64,000 nucleotides of DNA from Colwellia sp. TT2012 (lineage in GTDB: Bacteria > Pseudomonadota > Gammaproteobacteria > Enterobacterales > Alteromonadaceae), in contig NZ_LJYX01000002.1 of NCBI RefSeq assembly GCF_001440345.1, forward strand, positions 62,001 through 126,000, given 5' to 3'. Below are positions 2,469-38,656 of the stretch, piece by piece. The notes beneath the pieces were generated by a model that saw only the letters and a program-made list of their open reading frames with translations, was not told the origin of the DNA and searched no databases. The position numbers and the translations under genes were made by a program. Numbering within the stretch: position 1 is the stretch's first letter; each line of letters starts with the position of its first letter.

Positions 2469-3494
2469 ATGAAAGCTTTAGCTAAATTAAAAGCAGAACC
2501 AGGCATTTGGTTAACCCAGACCGAAAAGCCGAAACTAGGTCATAACGATCTACTTATCAAAATCAAAAAAACCGCCATTTGTGGTACCGATATCCATATT
2601 TATAACTGGGATGAATGGGCACAAAAAACTATTCCTGTGCCTATGGTGGTCGGTCATGAATATGCGGGCGAAGTCGTCGGTATTGGCCAAGAAGTAAAAG
2701 GCTTTACTATTGGTGATCGTGTTTCCGGTGAAGGTCATATTACTTGTGGCCATTGTCGAAATTGCCGTGGTGGAAAAACTCACTTATGTCGTAATACCAT
2801 AGGTGTTGGCGTAAATCGCGAAGGTTCATTTGCTGAATTTTTAGTGATACCTGCTTATAATGCCTTTAAATTACCGGATGAAATTTCAGATGACTTAGCG
2901 GCAATTTTCGACCCCTTTGGCAATGCAGTGCACACCGCCTTGTCATTTGATTTAGTCGGTGAAGATGTCTTGATCACAGGTGCCGGTCCTATCGGTATTA
3001 TGGCGGCGGCAGTGGCCAAACATGTTGGTGCTCGCCATGTCGTTATCACAGATATTAATGAGTATCGCCTTGATCTAGCAAGAAAAATGGGCGCAACTCG
3101 TGCGGTAAATGTCAGTACAGAAAAACTAGAAGATGTCATGAGCGAATTAGGCATGAATGAAGGTTTTGATGTTGGCATGGAAATGTCAGGTGTCCCAGCA
3201 GCATTTACCAGTATGTTAGAAAATATGAATAATGGCGGTAAAATTGCCATGTTAGGTATTCCCAGTGGCGAAATGGCCATTGATTGGAGCCAAATTATCT
3301 TTAAGGGCTTAACCATTAAAGGTATTTATGGCCGTGAAATGTTTGAGACCTGGTATAAGATGGCGAGCTTGATCCAATCGGGCTTAGATCTAACACCAAT
3401 TATTACTCACCATTTCAAGATTGATGACTTCCAACAAGGCTTTGATATGATGCGATCTGGTCAATCTGGCAAGGTCATTTTAGATTGGACCTAA
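2469..3494 (+). CDS. tdh: L-threonine 3-dehydrogenase
   Basis: A zinc-dependent medium-chain dehydrogenase that oxidises L-threonine to 2-amino-3-ketobutyrate with NAD. The 341 residues equal the usual length. The catalytic zinc site is C38 with H63-E64 (GHEYAG). The structural zinc loop has C93, C96, C99 and C107. The NAD-binding Rossmann motif is GAGPIGIMA. The characteristic Tdh signature [13 protein letters not shown] is present. It works with the upstream kbl. A hairpin that may end the transcript follows at 3520. Confidence 0.97.
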
Positions 3495-3519
3495 ATTGGT
3501 TATACTAGCGGTTACAAAA

Positions 3520-3549
3520 GCGCTACCTTAGCTGGGTAGCGTTTATATT
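3520..3549 (+). terminator. Hairpin after tdh
   Basis: GCGCTACC and GGTAGCG form a stem around a loop of about six bases, followed by TTTATATT. It sits 25 bases after the tdh stop. The T tail is weak, so termination may be partial. Confidence 0.55.
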
Positions 3550-3621
3550 AAGTTGAGCGAAACCAAAAAATCACTGTCATCAAGGCCGTGATTTAAATAA
3601 AGGTTAATTGAGGAATACATA

Positions 3622-3948
3622 GTGTCAGAGAATAGTTTTAAACATATGTCAGTCAGTGAGCTGCAAGCAGTTATGGCAGATAAGTCACATGTTGTTGTAG
3701 ATATTCGAGATGAAAATTCCTTTGCCAATGGCCACATTACCGATGCGATTAATTTAACGAATGAATCAATGGCTGACTTTTTACGTACAGCAGATCTGGA
3801 TGCACCGCTAGTTGTTTGCTGTTATCACGGCATTTCCAGTCAACAAGCCGCACAATTTCTCATTAGCCAAGACTTTACTGACGTCTACTCTCTTGACGGC
3901 GGCTTTACTCAATGGCAAACAGACTTTCCTGATAATATTGAGCGATAA
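3622..3948 (+). CDS. glpE: Thiosulfate sulfurtransferase GlpE (rhodanese)
   Basis: A single-domain cytoplasmic rhodanese that moves sulfane sulfur from thiosulfate to cyanide or thioredoxin. At 108 residues it matches E. coli GlpE in length. The active-site loop CYHGISSQ carries the catalytic cysteine (C67), and the DIRD and GHI segments of the rhodanese fold are present. The start is GTG, preceded by GAGGAA. The rhomboid protease gene glpG follows after five bases, as in other gammaproteobacteria, although no glycerol-regulon genes are seen here. Confidence 0.93.
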   Translation: MSENSFKHMSVSELQAVMADKSHVVVDIRDENSFANGHITDAINLTNESMADFLRTADLDAPLVVCCYHGISSQQAAQFLISQDFTDVYSLDGGFTQWQTDFPDNIER

Positions 3949-3953
3949 TTAGC

Positions 3954-4844
3954 ATGACAAATGAGTCTGCTGAGAATATGGATACTTTACAGCCTCTGGT
4001 GCAAGTTAAAGATCATAATATTGCCTTATTATTTAGTAACTATTTACAATCTTTGGGTATTCAAGCGCAGCTTAAAGCAAACTCAGAGCAGGGCTATATG
4101 ATTTTGTGCCCTAAGAATAAGATCTCACAAGCAAAAACAGAATTTGATGCCTTTATTTTGCAACCTTATGCTGATAAGTATCAACAAGCAGCATGGGATA
4201 GAGCTGAAACAGTCACCTTAAATGCGGATGATTTCAGTTTATTAGCTAACTTCAAAGAAAACTTTTTAGCTCATGCCGGTATTGTTACCTTAGTGATTTT
4301 TAGCCTGTGCTGGCTAGTCTTTCTAGGTAGTGAGCTGGGTTGGGCACAACAAATTTTCAATAGCTTACAGTTTTATCCGCAACTATCAGTGGATGCTTTT
4401 TTAGCAGAGCCGCTACGTTTAATTGGCCCTGCATTTTTTCATTTTTCTTGGTTGCATATTGTCTTTAATACCATGTGGTGGTGGCAGTTGGGTGGCAGTA
4501 TTGAGCAAACTTTAGGTAAAAAAACACTGATAAATATACTACTTATCTCGGCGATTGTTTCTAACCTAGGCCAATATTTAGTCTCAGGGGCTAATTTTGG
4601 TGGCTTATCTGGCGTGGTCTATGCGCTGGTGGGTTTTGTCTGGTGGTTTGGCTATTTAGCACCAGAGCGCGGCTTGTCGCTGGCTAAACCTTTGGTTGGT
4701 TTTTTACTGTTCTGGTTGCTGCTTGGTTTTGTCGACTTACTACCAGTTAATGTTGCTAACACTGCGCATTTGTTGGGCTTATTGTCAGGGTGTTTTTTAG
4801 CGTTAGTTACCGTGAAAGTCATCGGTATCAAGGTTAAAAAATAA
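3954..4844 (+). CDS. glpG: Rhomboid intramembrane serine protease
   Basis: An inner-membrane protease that cuts transmembrane segments of other membrane proteins. The first roughly 95 residues are the soluble cytoplasmic domain of the GlpG subgroup; about six membrane segments follow. The catalytic dyad is S219 (GGLSGVVYALVGF) and H272 (NTAHLLGLLSG). H168 and N172 in HIVFNTMW are the oxyanion-hole residues of the family. The gene probably shares a transcript with glpE. Confidence 0.95.
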   Translation: MTNESAENMDTLQPLVQVKDHNIALLFSNYLQSLGIQAQLKANSEQGYMILCPKNKISQAKTEFDAFILQPYADKYQQAAWDRAETVTLNADDFSLLANFKENFLAHAGIVTLVIFSLCWLVFLGSELGWAQQIFNSLQFYPQLSVDAFLAEPLRLIGPAFFHFSWLHIVFNTMWWWQLGGSIEQTLGKKTLINILLISAIVSNLGQYLVSGANFGGLSGVVYALVGFVWWFGYLAPERGLSLAKPLVGFLLFWLLLGFVDLLPVNVANTAHLLGLLSGCFLALVTVKVIGIKVKK

Positions 4845-25658: not shown

Positions 25659-25682
25659 TTGACAACAAATAAAGGTGTTTTT

Positions 25683-26156
25683 ATGATTAAGCAAAATAGT
25701 TTAATGCCCGTAGGCGAATTACAACAATTAAAAAATGGCGAAATGATCACGCATAAAACTGCTGAACTGTTTGCTAATAAAAAAGTGGTGTTATTTGCCG
25801 TACCCGGTGCTTTCACGCCAACCTGTTCCGCCGCACACTTACCTGGTTATGTGGTTTCGGCGGATGAATTTAAAGCTAAAGGTGTAGATGCCATTATCTG
25901 TTTATCTGTTAACGATGCATTTGTGATGAATGCCTGGGGCGAGTCGCAAAATGCCGAAAATATCATGATGTTAGCCGATGGTGATGGTAGCTATAGCAAA
26001 GCATTAGGTTTAAGCATGGACACCGCTAGTTTTGGTGGCTTGCGCTCTCAGCGTTATGCCATGATTATTGATAATGGCATAGTGAGCCATTTAAATGTTG
26101 AACAAGCCAAAGCGTTTGAAGTCAGTAAAGCCGAAGTCATTCTTGCTCAGCTGTAG
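25683..26156 (+). CDS. Peroxiredoxin (Prx5/AhpE-like redoxin)
   Basis: About 157 residues from ATG 25683 (AAAGG upstream; the frame is open to 25659). It reduces peroxides with a thiol. The peroxidatic cysteine is in VPGAFTPTCSAAHLPGY, the signature of the Prx5 subfamily, and the conserved arginine is in GLRSQRYAMIIDNG. No fused glutaredoxin domain. A strong terminator follows, so it is probably a single-gene transcript. Ferritin downstream suggests, without proving, a shared oxidative-stress role. Confidence 0.93.
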   Translation: MIKQNSLMPVGELQQLKNGEMITHKTAELFANKKVVLFAVPGAFTPTCSAAHLPGYVVSADEFKAKGVDAIICLSVNDAFVMNAWGESQNAENIMMLADGDGSYSKALGLSMDTASFGGLRSQRYAMIIDNGIVSHLNVEQAKAFEVSKAEVILAQL

Positions 26157-26378: not shown

Positions 26379-26906
26379 ATGTTAAAAGCTGACATGGTAG
26401 ACAAGTTAAACAAACAACTTAATTTAGAGTTTTACTCTTCAAATTTGTATTTACAAATGAGTGCCTGGTGTGAAGAAAAAGGCTTTTCTGGCGCGGCAGA
26501 ATTTTTACGTAAACATGCTAATGAAGAAATTCAGCACATGAACCGTTTATTTACTTACGTAAGTGAAACGGGCGCCTTACCTATTATTGGTGCTATTGAT
26601 GCGCCGCCGCATGAATTTGAAAGCTTAGGGCAATTATTTCAACTAACTTACGACCATGAATGTTTAATCACTGAGCGCATTAACTCACTTGCTCATGAAG
26701 CATTCACTAATCAAGATTACTCTACCTTCAACTTCTTACAGTGGTATGTGGCTGAGCAACATGAAGAAGAGACTTTATTCAAAGGTATTTTAGATAAAAT
26801 CAACCTAGTAGGTAACGATGGTCATGCGTTATTCTTCGTTGATAAAGATTTAGCCGAACTTGCCAAAACTGGCAGCACCAGCATAATGACAGGCGCCACA
26901 GTATAA
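26379..26906 (+). CDS. Non-haem ferritin
   Basis: The 175 residues form a four-helix ferritin with the dinuclear iron site: E17 ([11 protein letters not shown]), E50 and H53 ([11 protein letters not shown]), E94 region ([15 protein letters not shown]) and Q127-type helix ([15 protein letters not shown]). It oxidises Fe(II) and stores iron in a 24-subunit shell. Similar to FtnA of E. coli in length and sequence; a second ferritin gene elsewhere cannot be excluded, so no symbol is given. Confidence 0.93.
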
Positions 26907-30659: not shown

Positions 30660-32336
30660 TTATGTTAATACCCAGCGATTTTTTAGCTCATTATTTATTA
30701 AGTCATCATTTCGTTGATAACGTGTAGATAAAGTTCTTTCTAGCTCGGTTATTAAAAGGGGTTTAGGGATAAAGTCATCCATACCTACAGCGGCACAATT
30801 TTCTCTATCTGCTTTTAATACATTAGCCGTCATGGCAACGATAATGGGGCGAGCTTGGCCATAACGTTTGACTATTTCTTTTGTTGCAGTCAAACCATCC
30901 ATTTCTGGCATTTGCAAATCCATGAAAATAATACTGTATTCTGAACTATTTAAGGCCGCTAACGCTTCAAGACCATTAACGGCTACATCACATTCAAAAC
31001 CCAATTTTGATAACATCATTTTTACGATGGTCTGATTTATACGTACATCTTCAACAACAAGTATTTTATGATTAAGATTGATGGAATTTGCTAACTCATT
31101 TTCTGGACTTTTTTGAACACGGGAGTTTTTAAGGTTTTGAGCGGCTTTTAATGGTAAAGATAAGTGGAATGCTGTACCTTTTTTTTCTTCGCTTTCTACA
31201 CGAATAGTGCCATTCAACGCTTTGGTAAGGTTAGCTGAAATAGCAAGCCCGAGACCTGTGCCGCCAAACGTTCTACTCATTGAATTATCGGCTTGAGTAA
31301 AGGGTTGAAAGATGTTTTTCAGGGCGCGTTTACTAATACCAATTCCAGTATCTTTTACAATTATATTAACTTGATAGAGAGAAACAGCTGTTTTTTCACA
31401 CTCCACTATTATATTAACTTCACCTACTTGGGTGAATTTAATCGCGTTATTTAACAGATTAATTAATATTTGTTTTATTTTTGCTACATCCCCCTTCAGC
31501 ACTACAGGCGTAGCGTTATCAAACAAAGTGGTTATGTTAAGTCCTTTAAGCTGAGCCGTAGCAGAGGATAGTTTAACCACCTCTTCTACAGACTCAATAA
31601 CGTTAAAATCAACTTCATCCAACTCCACTTTACCGGTTTCTAAATGACTATAATCTAATATGTCATTAAGTATTTTTAATAAGTCGTCACTGCTATTCGT
31701 TATTGCGCCAAGCATTTCTGTTTGTTGGTTATTAAGCGGCGTATCTTTTAACATCTGAACAATTCCCAAAATACCATTCATTGGTGTTCTTATTTCATGA
31801 GATATAGTGGCTAAAAACATAGACTTTAGCTTATTGGATTCTTCTAAAATCACTTTTTCATTTTGTAATTGTCTATTTTTAAATTCGTTATTTTTTGTTT
31901 CTAATGATTTTTTTACGGATGTACAAAATAGTTCTAACACTATTGAAATTTGGGAAGAGAATCGCTCTGAACGTTGTAAAAAAAGCATCAACTTAGAGTT
32001 TTTACTGTCTTTATGTAACACGTTGTAAAATAGGTAATAGTCGTTGTCAGATAACGATATAGGCATGTTTTGCGTATATTTTACAATAGGTAATTGCGTT
32101 AACGACTCGAAGTCATGGTTTGTATCCTCGTTGTTTAAAACGAGTTCAAGGTGACATTTTGTCGACTTCTCAAGGATAATACATAGATCAAAATTGATAA
32201 TCCACATCAATTTATCAACCGACTGACTTATTATTTGGCTAACGTCTACAGAAGGGTTAATACTGTCTTCTGCCATCGCATTTGTTAGCTCAATTAGAGA
32301 CGCTAATTGGTAAGTATCAATTAATTTTTTAGCCAT
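30660..32336 (-). CDS. Soluble hybrid sensor histidine kinase (HisKA-HATPase-REC)
   Basis: The 558 residues have no membrane helix. The first 165 form an undefined, possibly GAF-like sensory region, followed by a coiled linker. HisKA carries H180 (ATISHEIRTPMNGILG). The ATPase domain has the N box NLLNNAIKF, G1 DTGIGIS and G2 GGTGLGLAI. The C-terminal receiver has the acidic pair in LVVED and the phospho-acceptor D473 (FMDLQMPEMDG). There is no output or Hpt domain, so phosphate must pass to a partner elsewhere. Its start overlaps the end of the AhpD-like gene by eight bases. Confidence 0.92.
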   Translation of the reverse strand: MAKKLIDTYQLASLIELTNAMAEDSINPSVDVSQIISQSVDKLMWIINFDLCIILEKSTKCHLELVLNNEDTNHDFESLTQLPIVKYTQNMPISLSDNDYYLFYNVLHKDSKNSKLMLFLQRSERFSSQISIVLELFCTSVKKSLETKNNEFKNRQLQNEKVILEESNKLKSMFLATISHEIRTPMNGILGIVQMLKDTPLNNQQTEMLGAITNSSDDLLKILNDILDYSHLETGKVELDEVDFNVIESVEEVVKLSSATAQLKGLNITTLFDNATPVVLKGDVAKIKQILINLLNNAIKFTQVGEVNIIVECEKTAVSLYQVNIIVKDTGIGISKRALKNIFQPFTQADNSMSRTFGGTGLGLAISANLTKALNGTIRVESEEKKGTAFHLSLPLKAAQNLKNSRVQKSPENELANSINLNHKILVVEDVRINQTIVKMMLSKLGFECDVAVNGLEALAALNSSEYSIIFMDLQMPEMDGLTATKEIVKRYGQARPIIVAMTANVLKADRENCAAVGMDDFIPKPLLITELERTLSTRYQRNDDLINNELKNRWVLT

Positions 32337-32886
32337 TATTAAGTAAACTCACAACCTTTTGGTCAACGTTAATCATCATGCCTTGCGCAAGTGTATTCGA
32401 ATAATTGACCAAACTAACCAGAGCCATTAATTCAAATATTTGGCTTTTGGTGAGCCCAGAGTCGAGTAAAGTCTGATGGTCTGCTTCAACGATTAAGGCT
32501 GGATTTATAGCCATTTTTTTAGAAAACTCAATGGAGAGTTTAACCCTTTTGGGGTTTAAGTTAGTTGCTTTTTCTAGTACTTTTTGAATATCACCCTCAT
32601 TTACATTAAGAAGCTTACACATCGCAGTATGAATATCGGTGCAATAGCTACAGTTTTTTTCATTGGAAACAGCAACAAAAACAAGTTCCTTTAATGACCG
32701 AGGTAATTCACCTTTCACTAAAATATTTTTTAGAGCATTCCATGTCACGTCTAATACCATAGTGTTGTAATTACCAAGCACTTTAAAATAATCGACAAGC
32801 CCTTCGTTGCCTAAACACTCGAATATATCGTCGTAAATTTCTTTTACTGATTCAGAAGCTCCTTCATATTCCAAAACACTATACAT
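32329..32886 (-). CDS. AhpD-like (carboxymuconolactone decarboxylase family) protein
   Basis: The 185 residues form an all-helical AhpD-like domain with the redox signature CSYCTDIH (C79, C82, H86), preceded by ELVFVAVSNEKN. Such proteins use the CxxC pair for peroxidase or disulfide chemistry. The typical C-terminal helix (LTKSQIFELMALVSLVNYSNTLAQ) is present. The eight-base overlap with the hybrid kinase gene means the two are translated together, which suggests that the redox protein feeds a signal to the kinase, or is its input. No alkylhydroperoxidase partner (AhpC) is adjacent. Confidence 0.85.
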   Translation of the reverse strand: MYSVLEYEGASESVKEIYDDIFECLGNEGLVDYFKVLGNYNTMVLDVTWNALKNILVKGELPRSLKELVFVAVSNEKNCSYCTDIHTAMCKLLNVNEGDIQKVLEKATNLNPKRVKLSIEFSKKMAINPALIVEADHQTLLDSGLTKSQIFELMALVSLVNYSNTLAQGMMINVDQKVVSLLNNG

Positions 32887-33306
32887 TTTAATAGCCTAAT
32901 TAAAATAGTTACAGTAATTGTAGTCAAATGTTCTGATTTCACCCAATAGTTTTGGGTAGCGTGGTGTTTATAACTCTTAACTCTATTACTGGCGAAGACC
33001 TTCTCATAAAAAATCATGTTAGACCAAGATAATAGAGTGATTTTTACATACAAAGTCTAAAGTGAAAGAAGAATTTTTATATTGAGATAAATGTCTCGTT
33101 TGTGGCAGTAGTTAGCCTTTCCAACGCAGCCAAAACAGTCTGCTTTTAGCGATCAGTTGACCTAAAGAATAGCCAGTAGCTAAGGTCAACAATGCGCACC
33201 AAGAAGTCATTAACGCTGAACTATTTGTAATTATCCATTAGTTAAGATCTAAGGTTCTTTCGCCGCCATTGCGAGTTAGAAACTATAAGTTTAAGGCCAG
33301 AATTAC
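32887..33306. other. Gene-poor stretch upstream of the AhpD-like gene
   Basis: A short minus-strand frame at 33210-33112 encodes 32 residues (MTSWCALLTLATGYSLGQLI, then KSRLFWLRWKG): one membrane helix and a basic tail. It could be a small membrane protein or the end of a lost one; no good Shine-Dalgarno sequence precedes it. The rest is A+T-rich and presumably holds the promoter of the AhpD-like/kinase operon. Confidence 0.35.
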
Positions 33307-37387: not shown

Positions 37388-38656
37388 TTAATAGTGTACT
37401 CGCTCATTTAATACCTTAAACGCTTCACTAGCTCTATCTTCTTCAGCGCAAATAGTTAATAAATCTTCAATAAAATTATTTAGCGCTCGGTGTTCAATTT
37501 GTCGTACTTTTTCTTGCTGTACTGGCGTTAACATTTGATAGCTAGTAGCAGCACCAAAGTCGCCAAAAATGATATTACCTTGAGTATCAAATAAGGTGTT
37601 ATGGGCGTATAAATCACCGTGACATACTTTGCTTTTATGTATGTGGTTAAAGACATCTTCCATTTGCTGCACTATGTTGGTGATGAGGGTAATAGTTAAA
37701 CTAAAACCTTGTGGAAATGTGTCACGGGTACAACTTTTAAAGCAAGGTGGCAGACCTAGGTTTTTATAGTGTTCAGGAATTAAATTCATGATTAACGCTA
37801 GGTACTTACCTCCTGAGTTTAAGTCTTCCTTCACTTGCGCCAACGATTGTATTAAATTTGGGTGATTACCGACTTGCAAACACGCTTGTAATTCATCTTC
37901 TGGGTAGCCGTCACTGGTTACGTCACCTTTAAATACTTTTACGGCAATGTCATCAGGGAATTGAGACTGGGCACTATGCCAATGGGCTTTTGAAATAACG
38001 CCAGAAGCGCCTTGGCCAAGGACATGCTCTAAATTGTAGCTAGCTGATGATAGCTCAGGTACCGATTTCGCCTTAGCTTTTTCTCTGGCACTAAGTTCTG
38101 AGAATGGGTTACCGGCAAAAGCCAGCCAAGCTAACTTTGGTAAGTTTAATAACTGCTCAGGACATTCAGTTAACTTATTGGCTGAAATTCGAATCAGTTC
38201 AAGGTTATGAGCTCGGGCTAATGATTGCGGTAATTGCGTTAAGCGGTTACCTGCTAAGGCTAGCTTTTGTAATCTAGGTCGTTCACCTAAAGAGTCAGGT
38301 AAGGTGGTAATTTGATTATCGGTTAATATTAACCAACGCAATTTCGTCGGCAGTGAGTTTGGCGCTACGTGTGTTATTTGGTTTGATTTAAAGCCAACCA
38401 TCTCTAAGTTAGGTAACTTTCCTAACACTTCGGGCAGGTGTGAAAATTTATTTTGCGAAGCGAAAATTATCTTCAATTTGGTTAGTTGTACGAGTTCTTC
38501 CGGAAGCGATGACAAGTCATTACTTGATAAGTCGAGTATCTCTAAACTGTCAGCCAAGGTTAAAATTTCTAGGGGGAATTCGGTTAAATTTTCAGCGAGT
38601 TTTAACTGATTAATGCCGGCGAGTTCACCAGAGCGAAGCTGAGCAAGAGTATGCAA
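37388..38656 (-). CDS. Leucine-rich-repeat protein kinase
   Basis: The 422 residues start with about seven leucine-rich repeats (LDLSSNDLSSLPEEL, LILTDNQITTLPDSL, LALAGNRLTQLPQSL and others, about 15-190). A eukaryotic-type protein-kinase domain follows: glycine loop LGQGASGV (213-220), lysine K240 (IAVKVFKG), catalytic loop HGDLYAHN (346-353, D348) and DFG (366-368). The HRD arginine is glycine, as in many non-RD kinases. There is no membrane helix or signal, so it should act in the cytoplasm. It appears to be a single gene; substrates are unknown. Confidence 0.9.
   Translation of the reverse strand: MHTLAQLRSGELAGINQLKLAENLTEFPLEILTLADSLEILDLSSNDLSSLPEELVQLTKLKIIFASQNKFSHLPEVLGKLPNLEMVGFKSNQITHVAPNSLPTKLRWLILTDNQITTLPDSLGERPRLQKLALAGNRLTQLPQSLARAHNLELIRISANKLTECPEQLLNLPKLAWLAFAGNPFSELSAREKAKAKSVPELSSASYNLEHVLGQGASGVISKAHWHSAQSQFPDDIAVKVFKGDVTSDGYPEDELQACLQVGNHPNLIQSLAQVKEDLNSGGKYLALIMNLIPEHYKNLGLPPCFKSCTRDTFPQGFSLTITLITNIVQQMEDVFNHIHKSKVCHGDLYAHNTLFDTQGNIIFGDFGAATSYQMLTPVQQEKVRQIEHRALNNFIEDLLTICAEEDRASEAFKVLNERVHY

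Follow-up and report, generated by a model that had tools for sequence, protein, structure and literature searches.

An AhpD-like protein of the CMD family as a possible input partner of a soluble hybrid histidine kinase in Colwellia sp. TT2012

In a stretch of 64,000 nucleotides from Colwellia sp. TT2012 (the window), the gene of an AhpD-like protein of the CMD family was found to overlap the gene of a soluble hybrid histidine kinase, and the same pair was recovered from other genomes. It was also observed that distant CMD genes in related genomes lay on the same strand as, and at most 30 nt from, other signalling genes, which is a new observation. We proposed that the AhpD-like protein is a dedicated input partner of the kinase, whose N-terminal domain is predicted to be of the GAF type. 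This proposal, which we regard as evenly poised, gained support from the repeated occurrence of CMD genes next to further signalling enzymes. A thiol redox signal for the kinase-paired type is suggested more tentatively and must be considered somewhat doubtful.

The AhpD-like protein of 185 residues was encoded at 32329..32886 of the minus strand and the kinase of 558 residues at 30660..32336 of the same strand. The eight-base overlap of the two genes described in an earlier note on this DNA was confirmed, since the reading frames 32886..32329 and 32336..30660 shared the 8 nt at 32329..32336 (minus strand). A CBS-domain gene (Pfam) was located upstream of the CMD gene, and no ECF41 sigma factor gene was present among the direct neighbours of the CMD gene, namely the kinase and CBS-domain genes. 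A leader or promoter region of ~0.1 kb directly upstream of the CMD gene (32887..33010, minus strand; boundary approximate, set by eye on the alignment) was partly conserved in four genomes, and the likeness between the window and the L070 locus extended further upstream. A sigma-70 scan was uninformative, giving no site in 32887..33010 and 8 sites overall, when 11.4 ± 3.0 were expected. The G+C content of the pair was 34.5% against 39.5% in the window; the third-position G+C of its two genes equalled 0.328 and 0.295, which was 0.6 and 1.5 sd below the mean of 0.349 (sd 0.035).

Two other observations were made in the window. A Redoxin-family gene of the peroxiredoxin type (25659-26156, plus strand) was followed by a ferritin-like gene (26379-26906, plus strand) ~4 kb from the pair, and this peroxide theme is perhaps a coincidence. 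Further, leucine-rich repeats and a Pkinase domain were joined in one protein encoded at 37388-38656 (minus strand), which was considered unusual for such a bacterium.

The smaller protein was assigned to the CMD/AhpD superfamily by its match to Pfam PF02627 (36.9 bits, cut-off 23), and the cut-off of the AhpD core domain TIGR00778 was also exceeded (29.8 over 27.8 bits). The cut-offs of AhpD proper (TIGR00777; 17.8 vs 191.95 bits) and of the NCBIfam family peroxid_rel (63.9 vs 81.8 bits) were missed. No second match to the protein was recorded in the Colwellia sp. TT2012 genome at E ≤ 0.01. The CxxC cysteines were present at the positions previously given for them, within an active-site-type motif C79-x-Y81-C82-xxx-H86 (32629..32652, minus strand) that was invariant in six of six orthologues, and E67 was located 12 residues before C79. 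All of E67, C79, C82 and H86, and also C90, were kept in the six CMD orthologues. The earlier reading had been made to depend on C79 and C82 being conserved in homologues of the pair, and it held in this respect. We took E67, C79, C82 and H86 to be equivalent to the catalytic Glu, the two Cys and the His of mycobacterial AhpD. The AlphaFold2 model of the protein was poor (pLDDT 46.2); by sequence profile, its solved relatives included 3c1l, 2pfx, 6k40 and 6ohi, and among the solved relatives were proteins named as enzymes, the debrominase Bmp8 (6ohi) and AhpDs.

Three domains of the larger protein scored above the Pfam cut-offs, all on the minus strand: HisKA (PF00512, residues 171-235, 31632..31826) with the presumed phospho-acceptor H180 (SHE at 179-181), HATPase_c (PF02518, residues 282-397, 31146..31493), and a C-terminal receiver (Response_reg, PF00072, residues 425-534, 30735..31064) with the presumed phospho-acceptor D473 (FMD at 471-473). 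With these phospho-acceptor positions present, the protein was classified as a hybrid histidine kinase. No 19-residue stretch passed a hydropathy cut of 1.6, and the kinase was therefore soluble by this test, in agreement with its previous description as a soluble, cytoplasmic hybrid. The best NCBIfam equivalog match was TorS, at 358.5 of the required 676.5, and the scores for BarA, LuxQ, ArcB and NahK were below their cut-offs too. No output domain followed the receiver, and neither an Hpt nor a DNA-binding domain was detected by Pfam.

The kinase had been said to have no known sensor domain. For sequence profiles this was upheld, as residues 1-165 (31842..32336, minus strand) gave no Pfam match, GAF included, at E ≤ 1; for the fold it was not, as the modeled structure was of the GAF type. 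The AlphaFold2 model of this region, built from three alignment rows, reached a pLDDT of 80.0 and a pTM of 0.76, the five models ranging from 80.0 to 49.0. By VIA-align the model matched an Idiomarina phytochrome photosensory module (Z 12.6, rmsd 3.3, 147 residues aligned) and the GAF proteins 3mmh (Z 11.3) and 3trc (Z 10.5), phytochrome and GAF modules among the best 50 rows having Z of 10.3-12.6. Foldseek gave weaker matches, with a best E of 8.4e-4 and, in most of the rows listed, a TM of 0.45-0.61; GAF-containing proteins made up most of its best 50 rows, the LuxR-type CepR2 and a small GTPase being among the few exceptions. Because the model matched GAF and phytochrome folds, residues 1-165 are most likely a divergent GAF-type domain missed by Pfam. 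Among the cysteines of the kinase, C52 in this region was invariant in the six orthologues and C138 was present in five of six.

The pair was found in six genomes, with gene spacings of -8, -8, -8, -11, +2 and +2 nt, that of the window being -8. A contig scan gave two orthologues, L024 (Colwellia sp. DT_20) and L025 (Pseudoalteromonas phenolica), whose CMD genes directly preceded a homologous hybrid kinase gene. Three more carriers of the pair came from searches of genomes: G139 and G193, which belong to another family of the order, and G891. G808 was counted as the Colwellia sp. DT_20 genome and not separately, since the reading frames agreed. The recurrence in five other genomes at tight spacing indicated that the pair was more than chance, and the worry that the pairing might be unique to this genome was removed by the neighbourhood search. 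The gene neighbourhoods differed among the pairs, with L040 and L041, from one genus, sharing theirs. The distribution of orthologous pairs was sporadic. Within the window's own genus, 3 of 39 genomes gave a match at E ≤ 1e-12, where only the own genome held the orthologue and the other two held distant CMDs; matches were recorded in 2 of 11 genomes of the genus of G139 and in 2 of 6 of the genus of G926 (G891 and G808). The searches of phylum genomes (2 of 349 matched at E ≤ 1e-25) and class genomes (2 of 369 at E ≤ 1e-20) gave a single match besides the own genome, G750, in which the CMD gene was unpaired. In L070 (G891), a 336-aa reading frame was noted at 3142-4152, ~550 nt beyond the kinase end, which presumably resembles a REP-associated transposase.

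The CMD proteins of the window and G139 were 86% identical, and the two organisms belong to different families. Compared with L024 and L025, respectively, identities were 63 and 60% for the CMD protein, 44 and 33% for the kinase N-terminal domain, 50 and 42% for the kinase core and 64 and 53% for the receiver. Hence, in the distant orthologues the CMD protein was better conserved than the kinase N-terminal domain and core and about equal to the receiver. In four comparisons of close orthologues, dN/dS was 0.037/0.48, 0.071/0.45, 0.071/0.57 and 0.048/0.26 for the CMD gene (ratio ~0.08-0.18) and 0.080/0.43, 0.092/0.38, 0.118/0.40 and 0.056/0.13 for the kinase gene (ratio ~0.18-0.45), values that point to purifying selection on both genes.

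Distant CMD genes were paired with several types of signalling genes. In L072 the CMD gene was followed at +9 nt by the gene of a 458-aa HATPase_c protein, and in L078 two tandem CMD genes were followed at -1 nt by that of a HisKA-HATPase protein of 630 aa, whose receiver match stayed below threshold (19.7 of 30.2 bits). In L042 and L043 an EAL protein gene came after the CMD gene, at -4 and +11 nt, respectively. The order was reversed in L079, L080, L082 and L083, where a GGDEF protein with an intact motif preceded the CMD protein, at -4 (L080), +1 (L082) and -4 nt (L083), and at -89 or +7 nt in L079 depending on the start chosen. The two EAL proteins (L042 5256-7175 and L043 6051-8000) carried a degenerate GGDEF part without the GGDEF motif; ESF/ESL stood at the EAL position, and DDFG was present only in L042. 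They are possibly receptors rather than enzymes, because of the degenerate GGDEF part and, in L043, the lack of DDFG.

The active-site residues were not uniformly kept. The four GGDEF-paired CMD proteins all lacked C79, their motif being V/A-P-Y-C-xxx-H with C82 and H86 retained, while the second tandem CMD protein of L078 lacked C82 and the second of L076 lacked H86. In these tandem genes (L078 6088-7266 and L076 2934-4118) each second copy was thus short of one active-site residue, and the arrangement resembles the pairing of a catalytic subunit with a pseudo-enzyme. Because of such losses, it was concluded that the paired CMD proteins share the family and a part of the pocket, not CxxC, and that the thiol state cannot be the signal in every pair, since the four GGDEF-paired proteins are without C79 and the second L078 copy is without C82. 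The earlier proposal that the thiol state of the AhpD-like protein is the kinase input may therefore apply where C79 and C82 were kept, in the six orthologues, and failed as a general rule. The N-terminal regions of the partners were compared with the window type by hhalign: that of L078 was related at E 1e-4 (probability 57.5), and those of the remaining partner types were not detectably related. A GAF docking site shared across partner types was thus not supported by the N-terminal profile comparison, L078 excepted. Pfam gave only a sub-threshold GAF in L082 and a sub-threshold PAS in L080 for these N-terminal parts.

In family genomes searched at E ≤ 1e-20 (13 of 295 matched), 10 of 19 CMD places were tightly paired, a count that includes the first CMD copy of L078, which reaches the kinase through the second copy, and that favours paired relatives because the search began from a paired query. 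Nine were not paired (L073-L075, two in L076, L077, L081, L084 and L085). A search at E ≤ 1e-12 (10 of 394 genomes matched) gave 5 paired of 10 CMD places. At E ≤ 1e-15 (72 of 394 genomes matched), none of the 25 loci L104-L128 had a tight histidine kinase, EAL or GGDEF neighbour within ~1.5 kb on each side, and five extra regions (L129-L133) were all unpaired. No histidine kinase, EAL or GGDEF match occurred in the fetched stretches of 24 other distant CMD loci, which comprised the 22 loci of one search other than the own one, together with L033 and L036; five of these genes were also in the tree described below, and the protein end of L007 was identical to a tree row. One of the 24 had a receiver-type reading frame on the opposite strand. 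As a background, 25 of 647 genes in 40 stretches of G891 were signalling genes (histidine kinase, EAL, GGDEF) and 7 of 549 other inner genes had one on their own strand at a distance of up to 30 nt, these numbers coming from one genome with mechanically called reading frames.

A tree of 61 CMD rows (45 unpaired), in which one gene is held twice (L047 and L105), required at least 7 changes of the pairing label. The six rows of the window type formed a single clade (99/99), as did, separately, the GGDEF-paired rows and the EAL-paired rows. Two enzyme-like clades (13 and 16 rows) contained only unpaired-labelled rows. Residue W49 was found in all 16 paired rows (the doubtful L026 included), in 10 of 16 other unpaired rows and in none of the 29 rows of the two enzyme-like clades. 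When the tree was split by eye into 16 lineages, five were tightly paired, the doubtful Adhaeribacter being left out. A rough binomial P against 7/549 was 1.3e-6 for 5 of 16 lineages, and 4.3e-5, equally rough, for 4 of 16 with L072 and the EAL type taken as one origin. Both values depend on the by-eye division, on a single-genome background and on a search whose query was itself paired.

Several further candidates were rejected. No natural CMD-kinase fusion was found, as the long open frames of L033 and L036 (404 and 405 aa), considered in this respect, gave no kinase, GGDEF or EAL match. The Adhaeribacter swui pair, a plasmid hit of 31.9% identity and, as the best match, the one for which neighbours were covered in the plasmid collection, was doubtful, the next protein of 277 aa matching HisKA only below threshold (E 0.096). 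L076 was counted as unpaired, since its HATPase fragment, of the same strand, lay ~640 nt upstream at the contig end, and so was L084, with an adjoining hybrid kinase on the opposite strand.

Since the pair occurs in several marine bacteria and its relatives stand beside other signalling enzymes, the AhpD-like protein may serve as a sensor in its own right and not as a housekeeping enzyme. We proposed that the two genes encode a two-protein cytosolic sensor. The AhpD-like protein would act as the detector that binds or reacts with the signal, and would dock on the kinase at its N-terminal GAF-type domain, altering the autophosphorylation or phosphatase state of the kinase. In the kinase-paired type the C79/C82 dithiol, together with H86 and E67, would most likely respond to an oxidant or some other electrophile as the signal. 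Phosphate would then pass from H180 to D473 and onward to a separate Hpt protein and a response regulator, because the kinase has neither an Hpt nor an output domain. The physical contact, the kind of signal, the direction in which control runs, and the part played by an Hpt protein and a regulator are what we infer.

It is plausible, judging from the domain content, that the kinase feeds a separate phosphorelay, as the earlier note had argued. An Hpt search of the own genome gave nine matches, seven of them in open frames of 704-1748 aa and another at the end of a receiver-GGDEF protein of 452 aa (domains assigned by eye). One of the nine was a stand-alone Hpt reading frame (L181 647-1806) of 128 aa, or 120 aa from GTG, and the gene adjoining it qualified as an ArcA equivalog, with 382.1 bits against a cut-off of 334. 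A route from the kinase through this Hpt protein to ArcA would be a guess, and an unlikely one.

In place of direct contact, the CMD protein could enzymatically produce or clear a small molecule bound by the GAF-type domain of the kinase, and likewise by the N-termini of the GGDEF and EAL partners. Small ligands are commonly bound by GAF domains, the kinase-paired CMD proteins have the full set of active-site-type residues, and the solved relatives include, as noted above, proteins named as enzymes. Against this, the overlapping or near-touching genes suggest a complex instead, and the GGDEF-paired proteins without C79 and the second L078 copy without C82 are still paired, which makes them more like binding partners; we consider this explanation unlikely on the whole.

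The kinase pathway might also control the CMD protein as an output or protective enzyme of the same operon. In L118 (707-2046) the CMD gene directly followed an OmpR-type response-regulator gene of the same strand, which lay 2 nt from the longest CMD reading frame. As pairing was defined by histidine kinase, EAL and GGDEF genes, this locus, which belongs to the enzyme-like clade of 13, was scored as unpaired, and it fits control of the CMD gene since CMD genes can evidently adjoin plain regulators too. The leader region common to four genomes and the ECF41 precedent, in which neighbouring CMD genes were the sole detectable targets in the available text of the source (PMC3426412), speak for the same explanation. 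However, a DNA-binding domain is missing from the kinase, partners of the GGDEF and EAL types do not regulate transcription, and CxxC is broken in 4 of 4 GGDEF pairs, so that control of this kind seems very unlikely. Least probable is that the genes are plain operon neighbours moved jointly by horizontal transfer with no functional link, as the sporadic presence and the low G+C (34.5 vs 39.5%) suggest unit transfer only weakly, whereas the recurrence with varied signalling genes is well above the 7/549 background and both genes appear to be under purifying selection.

If the AhpD-like protein is the input, a family of antioxidant and catabolic enzymes also supplies kinases and c-di-GMP enzymes with an exchangeable sensor. 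Orphan GAF kinases and cyclases of marine bacteria would then have a concrete input that can be tested, and some "carboxymuconolactone decarboxylase" annotations beside signalling genes would refer to sensors. A broader and rather speculative proposal is that the W49-marked branch of the CMD/AhpD family is a further class of stand-alone cytosolic sensors beside H-NOX and NosP in marine gammaproteobacteria, with interchangeable outputs (hybrid kinases, diguanylate cyclases and EAL proteins), where dithiol members would sense redox and members without C79 something else in the same pocket.

Among the papers matched, as judged from titles and the beginnings of abstracts in the matches listed, most subscription papers lying outside the scope, no description was found of a CMD/AhpD protein partnering a kinase or cyclase. 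The protein resembles AhpD and the peroxidase-related CMD proteins (3c1l, 2pfx, 6k40, 6ohi) in its profile relation and E-CxxC-H type residues, and differs from them in scoring under the NCBIfam AhpD and peroxid_rel cut-offs. In a Sulfurospirillum region a CMD gene, reductive dehalogenase genes and a kinase/regulator pair occur together, with no link between them stated in the available part of the source (PMC8865925). The nearest CMD precedent is ECF41: as far as the available text goes, adjoining CMD genes were the only detectable targets of the sigma factor, and co-expressed YdfG left sigma activity unchanged (PMC3426412). As in those ECF41-COE loci, a CMD-family gene is conserved here beside a signalling gene; there, however, the CMD protein is a target with no signalling role seen, whereas here the partners are kinases and c-di-GMP-type proteins. 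By analogy, ECF41 and L118 may be taken as fair warnings against reading CMD proteins as inputs.

In the HbpS-SenS-SenR system of streptomycetes, an accessory protein changed by oxidants, HbpS, is described in the available text as controlling kinase autophosphorylation (PMC4991794). An accessory protein and a kinase are likewise proposed here, but the secreted HbpS has a membrane kinase as its target, whereas the CMD protein and its kinase both appear cytosolic. H-NOX is a haem NO/O2 protein, and NosP is a haem NO/O2 protein related to FIST; no Pfam match to H-NOX or FIST families was found in the CMD protein at E ≤ 1. According to the portions of the sources available, H-NOX is a stand-alone sensor of HnoK/HqsK kinases or of DGC/PDE enzymes (PMC10746521) and NosP one that controls NahK/VpsS (PMC11237717), each often encoded by a neighbouring gene. 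The common plan, proposed here for the CMD protein, is a stand-alone cytosolic sensor protein with a soluble (hybrid) kinase or a c-di-GMP enzyme. By this analogy the proposed sensor-kinase arrangement resembles the known H-NOX and NosP logic, and the sensor family differs, the candidate here belonging to the CMD family.
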